Shown one piece after another: positions 9,242 to 21,443 of a stretch of DNA of 64,000 nucleotides. Both the position numbers and the translations under genes were made by a program. The notes beneath the pieces were generated by a model. It ran no database searches, was not told the DNA's origin, and worked only from the letters and a program-made list of their open reading frames with translations. Each line of letters starts with the position of its first letter. Position 1 is the stretch's first letter. This DNA is from Thermoplasmata archaeon (GTDB taxonomy: Archaea; Thermoplasmatota; Thermoplasmata; Lutacidiplasmatales; UBA184), in the NCBI GenBank assembly GCA_022750155.1, contig JAKIWG010000007.1, positions 1 to 64,000 on the forward strand. Direction: 5' to 3'.

Positions 9242-10390
9242 ATGATCTCTCCACCGGGTCGGGCGGGAATCCCAAGGCCACCTCCTACGCCGGGGGGGGC
9301 GGTCGAGGAACCCCCGAACGAACTCGATGTGCTGACCCGCCTCCCGCTGTGCGCCGAAGCGGCGTTAACCCTTCTGGGGGACCCGATCACCCCGACTCCA
9401 CGGTTCTTCATCCGCAACCACTTCCCCGCCCCCCGGCTCGAGCTCGCAAGCTGGCGGCTAGTGATCGATGGGGAGGTCGAGCGGCCGGTTTCGCTGTCGT
9501 ACGAGGATCTGGTCCGGCTCCCCCGCCGTGAGGGCATCGCACTCCTGGAGTGCGCGGGGAACAGCCGCTCGGGCGTCAACCCCCCCACCGAGGGCGTGCG
9601 CTGGTCGAACGGCGCTGTGGGGGCGGCGCGTTGGGCTGGCGTCCCCCTCGCCTCCGTCCTGGAGCGCGCGGGGGTGAAACCGGGCGCCAAGGAGGTGGTG
9701 TTCGAAGGCGCCGACCGGGGACGGGAGCCGGACGTCCCGGAGGAACTCCAGTACGCGATGAGCATCTCGATCGAGAAGGCGAGGGACGGGGACACCCTTC
9801 TCGCCGACCGGATGAACGGCGCCCCGCTTTCCGTGAACCACGGGTTCCCCGTCCGTGCCATCGTCCCGGATTGGTACGGGATGGCCTCGGTCAAGTGGGT
9901 CACGAAGCTGACGGTCATCGACCACGCCTTCCAGGGCTACTTTCGGACCCGACCGTACGTCTACATCCACGAAGGCGACTCCGTCGGGGGCACGAAGACC
10001 CCGGTGACGGTCCAGCGCGTCAAGTCCCTGATCACCTGGCCCGGGGAGGGCCAACCGATCCGACCCGGCCGCCACACGATCCGGGGCGTGGCTTGGTCGG
10101 GAGGTGGCCCGATCTCTCGCGTGGAGCTCAGCGTGGGACGACTGGACCCGGCGACCGAGCCGGACCAATGGCGTCCCACTCGGTTGACCGGAGATCCGGC
10201 GCTCCATAGCTGGACACCATGGGAGTACGAGATCGAGCTCGCGCGTCCGGGCTACTACGTCTTCCGGGTGCGCGCGACCGACGCGCACGGAAACACCCAA
10301 CCCGTACTCTCCCCGTGGAACTTCCGGGGCGTGGGGATCAACTCGGTCCACCAACTGCCGGTGGTCGTCGAGGGCGAGCCCCTGCGCTAA
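9242..10390 (+). CDS. Sulfite-oxidase-type molybdopterin oxidoreductase
   Basis: 382 residues. The molybdenum-ligating cysteine lies in ECAGNSR (C104), close to the CAGNRR signature of sulfite oxidase and nitrate reductase. The central Mo-cofactor domain (RPVSLSYEDLVRLPR, VNHGFPVRAIVPDWYGMASVKW) is followed by the C-terminal immunoglobulin-like dimerisation domain (about 270-375). There is no cytochrome b5 domain and no evident Tat signal; the N-terminus is Pro/Gly-rich. It probably oxidises sulfite or a related sulfur compound. Its convergent neighbour is msrA, with msrB next, so a link to sulfoxide or methionine repair is possible. A GAGGAG ribosome binding site precedes the ATG. Confidence 0.85.
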   Translation: MISPPGRAGIPRPPPTPGGAVEEPPNELDVLTRLPLCAEAALTLLGDPITPTPRFFIRNHFPAPRLELASWRLVIDGEVERPVSLSYEDLVRLPRREGIALLECAGNSRSGVNPPTEGVRWSNGAVGAARWAGVPLASVLERAGVKPGAKEVVFEGADRGREPDVPEELQYAMSISIEKARDGDTLLADRMNGAPLSVNHGFPVRAIVPDWYGMASVKWVTKLTVIDHAFQGYFRTRPYVYIHEGDSVGGTKTPVTVQRVKSLITWPGEGQPIRPGRHTIRGVAWSGGGPISRVELSVGRLDPATEPDQWRPTRLTGDPALHSWTPWEYEIELARPGYYVFRVRATDAHGNTQPVLSPWNFRGVGINSVHQLPVVVEGEPLR

Positions 10391-19651: not shown

Positions 19652-20211
19652 TCATTCTCCGGGCGAGCCCCTCGGCCTTCCAACGGAGGCTCGCGGCGAG
19701 CTCTCGGGCGTAGCCCTCACAGGGCGCCCCGGGGGCCGCCCCGAGCGGGTACGTCGGTGGCCCGACTTGATCTCTGCCATGGCGACCCGGACCCGCTCCG
19801 ACCGCCTCTCGGACTCGAAGGCGGCGATCCCCGGGAGGAGAGCCAAGAGCAGGTCCCTGCCGAGATTCGGCTTCCCGACTTCTGGCGTGTCGAGCGTCGG
19901 CTCCTTGAGGGAGTGGAACCGGACCCCCATTGCCTCGAAGTCGAGGACCGACTGTGTCGCCTTGGTGACGGTCGCCTCCCGAGAGAACCGATCCAAGGAC
20001 CAGACCAGGAGGTGGGTCGAGGGGCGGTCGGGGGCCCGGGCGTCCTTCAGTGGGCGGTCGTGCACAATGCGCTCGACCTTGCCGGTTCCGGAGACCCTCT
20101 CGGAGTAGACCTTCACGATCTCCCAGCCCCGCGGGCGCATTCCGTCCGGAGCTCCCGTTCCTGACCAGCGAGGTCCTGATCATCAGTGGAGAAACGGAGG
20201 TATAGGACCAC
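19652..20211 (-). pseudogene. Serine recombinase (resolvase/invertase), frameshifted
   Basis: A GTG at 20211 opens the frame VVLYLRFSTDDQDLAGQERE, the catalytic-serine start of the resolvase family (Ser in RFSTDDQ). This frame stops at about 20113. The rest of the catalytic domain continues in another frame from about 20140: GWEIVKVYSERVSGTGK, then LVWSLDRFSRE with the conserved Arg, and ESERRSERVRVAMAEIKSG of the E-helix. The two parts fit together with a one-base change near 20135. The DNA-binding C-terminus also looks damaged. It marks a former mobile element; the gene is probably inactive. Two tRNA genes lie just to the right. Confidence 0.7.
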
Positions 20212-20522
20212 CTTCGAGCTGCAGGGGCCGAGTTGGGAAGCTTGGTTGCCTCCGATGCCCCTCCCCGGCAAGGGAAGACTAGGTCGGCCGTCCACATGGT
20301 GGGCGTTATCGGATCGGGGCTCGCAGGCGCCGGAATCGCCGCCTTTCTGGTCCGTCCCGCGAGCGAAACCTACGGAGTTCTTGGATTCGTCACCGTCCTC
20401 GCGCTGTCCCTTGCCGCCTGCATTGGTGGGGTAAGACTCACGAACCGCTTGACTCGTTCCTGAGGGGTCCGGGTCCTCCTCCGGGGCGAGGAAGTCGGCG
20501 GCCGACTGGCGCCCGGGTGAGG

Positions 20523-20745
20523 TCACCTCCCCCCTGCCGCCCTAACCCGCTGCCTTCTTCGGCGCTCCGCGATGGTCTTCTCCTGGGCCCGGAAGTCGAG
20601 GTAGCAGTCCGAGCATCCCGAGGATCGAGATCGGTGGGGGGGTCTGCCCGCACCCCCCGCAATGCTTCCGGAGATGGGGTGGAACAGTCCGAACGTGCTC
20701 TAGGTCGGTGAACCTGAGCCTGTGCTCCCGGTAGACCCCGCGCAC
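20523..20745 (-). pseudogene. Small zinc-ribbon protein (DUF2116-like) with a frameshift at a G7 run
   Basis: The first frame gives VPPHLRKHCGGCGQTP and the second, one base off, gives GCSDCYLDFRAQEKTIAERR followed by a basic tail ending at 20523. Joined, they make HCxxCG...CSxxC plus a basic helix, the pattern of short archaeal zinc-ribbon proteins. The shift coincides with seven consecutive G (20636-20642, plus strand); six would restore one frame. The GTG at 20745 is the longest possible start. It could be a real frameshift, a phase-variable run or a sequencing error. Confidence 0.5.
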
Positions 20746-20812: not shown

Positions 20813-20888
20813 TGGGCCCGGACGGATTTGAACCGTCGACCGACCGGTTATGAGCCGGTCGCTCTGAGCCAGACTAAGCTACGGGCCC
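20813..20888 (-). tRNA. tRNA with CAT anticodon (elongator Met or Ile2)
   Basis: Reads GGGCCCGTAGCTTAG on the minus strand. The acceptor GGGCCCG pairs with CGGGCCC, the anticodon stem ACCGG/CCGGT encloses loop CTCATAA (anticodon CAT), the T-arm is GACGG-TTCAAAT-CCGTC and the discriminator is A. No intron. The body resembles archaeal tRNA-Ile2 (lysidine/agmatidine type) as much as elongator Met, so the identity is left open. Confidence 0.93.
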
Positions 20889-20921: not shown

Positions 20922-21027
20922 CGCCGCCGAGCGGACTTTCGGGACCGGAACGGAGGGCCGTCCGGTACCTTCGAACCGCTGACCTTTCGGTTAACAGCCG
21001 ATCGCTCTACCGCTGAGCTACGGCGGC
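20922..21027 (-). tRNA. tRNA-Asn (GTT) interrupted by an intron in the T-loop
   Basis: Minus strand. Acceptor GCCGCCG (21027-21021) pairs with CGGCGGC (20929-20923); discriminator G is usual for Asn. The D-arm is GCTC...GAGC and the anticodon loop CTGTTAA (GTT). The T-stem AGCGG pairs with CCGCT, but 41 bases separate the two arms instead of 7. Removing 34 bases gives loop TTCGAAT, a perfect consensus T-loop. Mature length is 72. One A-A mismatch occurs at the base of the anticodon stem. Confidence 0.9.
20936..20969 (-). other. 34-base archaeal tRNA intron at position 59/60 with BHB motif
   Basis: On the tRNA strand, exon sequence TTCG pairs with intron CGAA to make a 4-base-pair central helix. 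Three-base bulges AAG and AGT flank it, with the T-stem outside and ACCGG/CCGGT inside. Cutting each bulge after its second base excises exactly this interval and joins TTCGAA to T. This is the canonical bulge-helix-bulge recognised by archaeal tRNA-splicing endonuclease. Confidence 0.85.
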
Positions 21028-21053: not shown

Positions 21054-21443
21054 CTAATAGCCTTTCCGACCCGCGGCGAGCCCCTTGTGCTCGTTCGCGC
21101 GGTCCTTGAGGTGCTCGATGAGCTCGCTCATCTTGTCGAGCGATGTGTCGAGCGACGCCCAGAACTCCTTGGTCTTGTCCGTGACGACGGCTCCGTCGGC
21201 GGAGGGCTGTATCACCCCCTCCCGCTCCAGGAGGTGCAATGAGTATCGCACCTTGTGGATGGGGAGGTGGAGGGCCTCGCTCAATCGGATGATCCCCATC
21301 GGGGGTTTCCCGGCGAGGTGTTCGAGGATATCCACGTTGCGCGCGAGCAGGTCAAGTTCGCTCGCGATCCGGTCGACCAGGTGGCTCCCGTCGGCGCCCG
21401 GAGCCCCCTCGGCCTCCTCGGGACGCGCGGGCGGTTTGCCCAT
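21054..21443 (-). CDS. Winged-helix transcriptional regulator
   Basis: 129 residues from the ATG at 21443; a longer start at 21542 is possible. After a Pro/Ala-rich N-terminus, residues about 30-100 form a winged helix: DILEHLAGKPPMGIIRLSEA, HLPIHKVRYSLHLLEREGVI, then a wing with AVVTDKTKEF. A C-terminal amphipathic helix (LDTSLDKMSELIEHLKDR) may dimerise. It resembles small archaeal regulators found in many euryarchaeotes; the ligand and targets are unknown. It sits between the tRNA genes and a divergently transcribed methyltransferase. Confidence 0.75.
   Translation of the reverse strand: MGKPPARPEEAEGAPGADGSHLVDRIASELDLLARNVDILEHLAGKPPMGIIRLSEALHLPIHKVRYSLHLLEREGVIQPSADGAVVTDKTKEFWASLDTSLDKMSELIEHLKDRANEHKGLAAGRKGY

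Follow-up and report, generated by a model that had tools for sequence, protein, structure and literature searches.

A tRNA-Asn gene interrupted at position 59/60 and the T-loop introns of Lutacidiplasmatales and related archaea

Archaeal tRNA introns outside the canonical position

Among the closest described systems are the noncanonical BHB tRNA introns of Thermoproteales, reportedly the subject of work by Sugahara in 2008 and Fujishima in 2010. More widely, noncanonical introns have been credited to Crenarchaeota, Nanoarchaeota, Thaumarchaeota, Korarchaeum and some Asgard archaea in the available parts of four papers (PMC4090602; PMC8450103; PMC4033280; PMC11291895), where Korarchaeum is presented as the only alpha2 archaeon that has them (PMC4033280) and tRNAscan-SE 2.0 is reported to give 673 noncanonical introns over 217 archaeal genomes, with Crenarchaeota and Thaumarchaeota named (PMC8450103). 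Position 59/60 is one of the noncanonical archaeal intron positions listed in the accessible text of PMC4090602, which describes Euryarchaeota, with endonucleases mostly of the alpha4 or alpha2 type, as having introns in <10% of tRNA genes, each single and at the canonical position only. Broad substrate use is tied to the CSL and ASL in the available part of PMC12397907, and the enzymes of A. fulgidus and T. acidophilum are rated narrow in that of PMC6379350. The accepted rule links introns outside 37/38 to endonucleases with special loops. As far as the open-access papers could be consulted in part, none on noncanonical tRNA introns in Thermoplasmatota was found, and no open-access paper on Methanomassiliicoccales tRNA introns was found; earlier machine annotation of some of the introns described here is likely.

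The window analysed here comprises positions 1 to 64,000 of contig JAKIWG010000007.1 (GCA_022750155.1), from a draft Lutacidiplasmatales genome of 51 contigs (93.7% complete, 1.82% contamination). The genus of this genome includes AcS1-67, JOPF142, Inc-BW-H-2-M_MAG52 and FK1.bin102; SubAcS13-24 (G025) belongs to another genus of the same family, and comparisons with it and with AcS11-62 (G026) are stated at family level. AcS1-67, AcS11-62 and SubAcS13-24 come from pine forest and stand in a table headed Lutacidiplasmatales in a paper that used tRNAscan-SE 2.0.5 and whose main text, in the part available, does not contain the word 'intron' (PMC9287336).

The tRNA-Asn gene and its intron

Table 1. 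Features of the tRNA-Asn locus and its surroundings (window positions)
Feature	Position	Strand	Remarks
tRNA-Asn(GTT) pre-tRNA, 106 nt	21027 to 20922	minus	anticodon GTT at 20993-20995
tRNA-Asn exon 1, positions 1-59	20970..21027	minus	sequence reading and ARAGORN
T stem AGCGG	20976-20980	minus	
T loop TTCGAA	20970-20975	minus	
Intron, 34 nt, between 59 and 60	20936..20969	minus	hairpin
Intron CGAA	20938-20941		pairs with exon TTCG
Intron AG	20936-20937		intron side of bulge 2
tRNA-Asn exon 2	20922..20935	minus	T60, T stem CCGCT, acceptor CGGCGGC, discriminator G73
tRNA-Met(CAT), intronless	20813..20888	minus	33 nt downstream of tRNA-Asn
GGAAAGGCTATTAG, BRE/TATA-like	21054..21067	minus	27-40 nt upstream of tRNA-Asn
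Serine recombinase	19652-20526	minus	about 670 nt downstream of tRNA-Met; Pfam Resolvase match over 19652-20140 (E 1.8e-14); N-terminal part seemingly in another frame (by eye)

Removal of the 34-nt intron (Table 1) leaves a tRNA of 72 nt with an acceptor stem of 7/7 pairs, a T stem of 5/5 and the T loop TTCGAAT, whereas without removal the 3′ half of the locus forms no T arm. ARAGORN calls a tRNA-Asn(gtt) on the spliced sequence and no tRNA on the unspliced one, to which the Rfam tRNA model gives a shortened match of 54 nt only (20974-21027, 35.8 bits). A preliminary description of the locus, made from the sequence, had proposed a tRNA-Asn with a 34-base intron in the T loop, with acceptor stem, T stem and T loop exact once it is removed; identity, limits and splice product all hold, and so does the joint at 59/60, which the available text of PMC4090602 lists, as the description had said, as noncanonical.

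The same description had called the BHB perfect, which is right for the core and not for the inner helix. The core is exact by sequence (central helix UUCG/CGAA, bulges AAG and AGU), giving the 4-bp central helix with two 3-nt bulges, each to be cut after the second base, that defines the motif. In the inner intron helix, on the other hand, the second pair is a U.C mismatch, and RNAfold favours a 2-nt 5′ bulge in the isolated arm (-24.4 kcal/mol; the strict 3+3 form, at about -20.9 kcal/mol, costs about 3.5 kcal/mol more). The minimum of the isolated arm retains the T stem and the central helix, with central-pair probabilities near 0.5; the cloverleaf is the RNAfold minimum neither for the whole precursor nor for the mature sequence, which, like the 2-nt bulge, is counted against the reading. 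In the precursor, the T stem would form the outer helix, U54-U55-C56-G57 paired with CGAA the central helix and the intron hairpin the inner helix. A single-chain endonuclease would then cut between AA and G and between AG and U, after which ligation of the exons by RtcB would restore the normal T loop UUCGAAU. Since the T loop, as long as its positions 54-57 are paired with the intron, should be unable to meet the D loop, splicing is expected to precede T-loop modification, and perhaps end trimming as well.

The upstream GGAAAGGCTATTAG is TATA-like and lies at the right distance to be a putative promoter of tRNA-Asn; it doubles as the final codons of the ORF upstream of the gene, and its conservation therefore cannot be taken as unambiguous evidence of a promoter. 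In the five genomes whose sequence covered the place, the Asn gene is present in all five, with the joint, the tandem arrangement with tRNA-Met and the upstream element kept (CTAATAG in G026). Exons of these orthologues average 94% identity and introns 63%, compared with 55% for shuffled introns. The central helix is mismatched in two of the five (G001 and G022), which is counted against the reading; the 7/7 spacing from T stem to intron stem stays.

A covariance model built from four other tRNAs of the same genome (R1: Arg-TCG, Asp, Gly and Glu) matches the Asn locus from end to end (58.9 bits), with an E value of 5.6e-13 when 76.7 kb are searched and of 1.6e-11 for the genome. A second intact tRNA-Asn, which according to the preliminary description would speak against the gene, was sought in the draft genome and not found, either among 37 Rfam tRNA places or among 27 R1 places (both E<=10, genome-wide), in an assembly of 51 contigs in which a gap could hide one. 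An ARAGORN tRNA-Asn at 9522-9594 (minus strand) lacks both a TTCRA T loop and any Rfam match over the gathering score, and was set aside as a false call.

A degenerate tRNA-Asn pseudogene carrying a random insertion might also be invisible to ARAGORN when unspliced, score low with Rfam and, as seen by eye here, contain an A27.A43 mismatch in the anticodon stem. It would, however, be the genome's only Asn gene found, its exons would have kept 94% identity over five genomes around the same joint, the same joint recurs in 11 more tRNA genes, and base 57 covaries with the intron over 135 T-loop introns (see below), all of which makes a pseudogene highly improbable. The locus is, with great confidence, a functional and apparently sole tRNA-Asn gene with a presumably protein-spliced archaeal BHB intron at 59/60.

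T-loop introns in the genome, the family and the phylum

The tRNA complement recovered from the genome amounts to 41 genes or fragments, comprising the 37 Rfam places and four from R1 (His, Leu-TAG, Pro-TGG and Ser-GCT). Four further R1 places (G000:C43:161622, C1:3280, C13:24797 and C39:1041) read as non-tRNA and were dropped. An intron at 59/60, after TTCRAA and before T60, is present in 12 of the 41; the preliminary description had taken the Asn gene for a single unusual case, but at least 12 genes of this genome share its kind of intron. Both exons are complete in nine of these (Asn, Arg-TCT, Arg-TCG, Asp, Gly-TCC, Ser-GGA, Ala-GGC, Glu-CTC and His), Gln-CTG and Ser-GCT have lost their 5′ ends at contig ends (Ser-GCT by reading only), and Leu-TAG, also by reading only, has a D-arm intron in addition. 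In Ala-TGC, the contig ends right after TTCAAA. Anticodon-loop introns are reported by ARAGORN in three genes (Tyr, Met and one on contig C22), and D-arm introns are found in Leu-TAG, Arg-GCG and Pro-TGG (L134, L035 and L136), that of Arg-GCG reading as a BHB (GTAG/CTAC). At least one intron is present in 17 of the 41 genes or fragments, and 12 of the 15 noncanonical introns share the 59/60 joint. The C22 gene (L028, G000:C22:13301-13415) is labelled Ser(tga) with a 31-nt intron by ARAGORN and may be a Leu-TAA with a canonical intron, its anticodon loop reading CTTAAA by eye. D-arm introns occur among relatives too (L240, L243, L244, L255, L259 and L282), and Lys-TTT in G001 appears by eye to have both a D-arm and a T-loop intron. 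Given nine 59/60-intron genes, ARAGORN missed six and misplaced the 3′ end of the other three; the annotated tRNA sets of these soil archaea may accordingly be incomplete, and missed genes could falsely imply absent tRNAs or low completeness.

The T-loop introns share a structure. In an alignment of eight T-intron tRNAs of the genome that was itself fitted to the structure, pairing holds in 97% of the structure cells and both partners vary in 18 of the 25 pairs, a level reached by 0 of 500 shuffles. A larger set of 135 T-loop introns was assembled from 92 found by a parser, 40 from the phylum stretches and three added by hand. The parser demanded 3/3 pairs at 54-56, so that pair counts there are not evidence while those at 57 are; it omitted the mismatched Asn of G001 and G022 and Gly-TCC of G010, as well as Leu-TAG and Lys-TTT, which are interrupted twice. 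Where base 57 is G (n=69), the facing intron base is C in 65, A in three and G in one; where it is A (n=66), the facing base is G in 43, U in 22 and C in one. The difference in facing C (65/69 against 1/66) has a Fisher p of 2e-32, computed over orthologues that are not independent. Base 57 also varies inside single tRNA species, namely Arg-TCT (8 G-C, 11 A.G and 2 G.A), Asp, Gly-TCC and Asn, the last being A.G in G026 and G-C in G000 and G010. The mismatching G faces A57 about twice as often as U does, which is counted against the reading. In the strict register, an average of 3.40 of the first four inner-helix pairs form in 77 family introns, against 1.76 for shuffled sequences; for 15 introns from outside the family the figures are 3.27 and 1.55, and in neither set did any of 200 shuffles reach the observed value. 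A base 58-59 tally of 'CC' (3/77) is probably a parser misreading.

The spread of these introns was followed with a second model (R2), trained on Asp, Glu, Gly, Arg-TCG, Arg-TCT, His, Asn and Ala genes, a training set that favours those tRNAs in cross-genome comparisons of counts. At E<=1e-12, R2 matches all 101 sampled genomes of the Lutacidiplasmatales family, from seven genera, with 2-10 matches each at places mostly not read individually. A survey of the phylum, made under stricter filters by which weak cases are lost, has matches in 42 of 194 genomes at 113 places, divided between seven family genomes with 6-8 each and 35 of the 187 others with 1-4. Both surveys scored just 20 or 39 first-look candidates per genome, and their counts are therefore lower bounds. 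Of the 113 places, 40 were fetched and all 40 parse as 59/60 introns. In three other genera of the family (G131, G227 and G081), the tRNAs interrupted are the same as in the window's genus at 19 of 20 places, the sole exception being Arg-CCG in G081; this figure covers 20 of 21 places, leaves G142 out and is favoured by the training of R2. At least 10 of 16 named, more distant genomes have at least one T-loop intron (30 loci fetched), the other six, including a Thermoplasma, having been searched in part only; Candidatus Methanomethylophilus sp. 1R26 and Methanomassiliicoccales RumEn M2 are both interrupted in Arg-TCT. The preliminary description had held the position to be known mainly from Thermoproteota and some Thermoplasmatota-related lineages; the cited papers, in their available parts, credit noncanonical introns to other groups, but the survey finds the position used repeatedly in Thermoplasmatota.

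A binning error, by which the contig would be foreign and the intron not of this lineage, might be entertained, the draft being in 51 contigs and showing 1.82% contamination. Introns of this kind are nevertheless present on other contigs, R2 matches 101/101 family genomes and the Asn-Met pair is kept in 5/5, and a foreign origin is scarcely credible.

Splicing enzymes, intron spread and known systems

The genome has one RtcB and one endonuclease ORF of 353 aa (L002:928-1989, minus strand), which contains two PF01974 repeats and matches the N domain and the catalytic domain twice each. Among 28 enzymes chosen for alignment from 81 relatives, Y291, H299 and K330 of the C-terminal repeat are invariant (28/28); in the N repeat, as judged by eye, the Tyr and His are not seen and a conserved Lys (K148) lies at a comparable place. 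The nearest named enzymes come from Thermoplasmata MAGs. These features point to an alpha'2-type endonuclease (one chain carrying two repeats, with Tyr-His-Lys in the C-terminal one), which would form a homodimer. A CSL/ASL loop insertion, with its Lys before the LxLS strand, is absent: the segment has the same length in 28/28 aligned enzymes, and no gap occurs at the loop site against A. fulgidus (1r0v) and M. jannaschii (1a79). This segment is the probable CSL/ASL insertion site, the alignments of 3p1y, 3p1z and 4fz2 starting just after it; the 3p1y entry is a chimera named as A. fulgidus with broadest specificity. As to the type of endonuclease, a question raised by the preliminary description, the answer is a single chain with two repeats that lacks the broad-specificity loops. 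Two repeats in one frame are also found in 10 of 11 further genomes (the second in G060 below the family cut-off), while no endonuclease was found in the eleventh, G093.

The enzyme might have been broadened by a route other than CSL/ASL loops, for example by a full two-repeat fusion like that of the Methanopyrus kandleri enzyme, in which case a strict BHB would not be what permits the position. For a model of a relative's enzyme (L043, 85% identical, mean pLDDT 90.4), Foldseek ranks 5x89, the M. kandleri subunit fusion, first and 2gjw of A. fulgidus after it, and both the mismatched central helices of some introns and the existence of D-arm introns would fit such a broadening. Most introns, however, keep the 3-4-3 spacing and the pairing, the loop site is without insertion in the comparisons given above, and the M. 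kandleri enzyme too is called constrained or limited in the available parts of PMC6379350 and PMC12397907, so that this explanation, while possible, is doubtful. 

On the favoured reading, the near identity of positions 54-57 in every tRNA lets one kind of intron end, typically [C/G/U]GAA-A-N, fit any T loop; this universal fit would have allowed introns to settle at one position in many tRNAs although the enzyme accepts mainly BHB substrates.

How the introns may have reached so many tRNAs is hinted at by likeness between them in some genomes. In G060, from another class of the phylum, near-identical T-loop introns of 36-42 nt, with ATGAA at both ends, interrupt Glu-CTC, Asp, Arg-CCT and Ala-TGC (L314-L317); all six intron pairs have Z above 4 (mean 8.75), which looks like recent intron copying. 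Elsewhere outside the family, pairs with Z>=4 number 3/6 in G201, 3/6 in G155, 1/6 in G093, 1/3 in G016 and 0/3 in G013. Within the family, they number 2/66 in the window's own genome, 0/55 in G001, 0/55 in G010, 2/28 in G131, 0/15 in G227 and 0/15 in G081. Recent copying inside the window's own genome was looked for and is barely to be seen, two of its 66 pairs standing out (Asn-Asp and Asp-His), with the mean Z being 1.0. When family genomes are compared with one another, introns from the same tRNA show only a slight likeness (mean Z 1.9; different tRNAs, 0.4). Taken as a whole, the proposal that the T-loop introns of Thermoplasmatota are a mobile RNA family landing on U54-U55-C56-R57 can be put forward only tentatively. 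An excised intron ending in [C/G/U]GAA-A-N would be reinserted into any T loop by the strict BHB endonuclease and RtcB and subsequently fixed in DNA. In Lutacidiplasmatales, the insertions would predate the split of the family and have left a set of about a dozen interrupted tRNAs, and in another class they would be of recent date, the example being G060, whose Glu, Asp, Arg and Ala tRNAs share one intron.

Integrases use the 3′ half of tRNA genes as attachment sites, and the introns might be kept as a shield of that half rather than as mere passengers. They do interrupt the 3′ half of many tRNAs within the T loop, and a resolvase-family fragment lies downstream of tRNA-Met (Table 1), yet many tRNA genes of the same genomes have no intron; a shielding role is unlikely.

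The Asn gene is a modest finding alone, and it is the wider pattern that carries the novelty. What is new here is a T-loop-centred set of introns in archaea whose single-chain endonuclease lacks the special loops. T-loop introns occur in members of several classes or families of one phylum, the enzyme being loop-less where it was looked at, and in one family they have become fixed in some dozen tRNAs. The lineage breaks the 37/38 position rule and mostly keeps the motif geometry, which suggests that the loop-less enzyme restricts the motif and not the place.

With the Thermoproteales introns, those described here have in common the BHB motif, the listed 59/60 position, an occurrence in several tRNAs per genome and, in some genomes of the phylum, likeness of introns across tRNAs; they differ in that Thermoproteales have an (alpha-beta)2 enzyme with a CSL loop and introns at many positions, whereas here, in another phylum, the enzyme is a loop-less single chain of two repeats and all but three of the 15 noncanonical introns lie at one joint. 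Motif geometry and enzyme class are those of the euryarchaeal 37/38 BHB introns, from which the present introns are set apart by their position and by the share of genes interrupted (17/41). The endonuclease resembles the alpha'2 enzymes of A. fulgidus (2GJW) and T. acidophilum (2OHC) in its one chain, two repeats, C-terminal Tyr-His-Lys and lack of CSL/ASL, but is longer (353 aa against 305 and 289), with two N-domain and two catalytic-domain matches, and its closest fold, judged from the L043 model, is the fused M. kandleri enzyme. Like the intron-rich soil Asgard archaea, this is a soil archaeon with many noncanonical tRNA introns; the Asgard archaea, as described in the available part of PMC11291895, belong to another phylum and have introns in 92-95% of their tRNA genes, over half of these with several.
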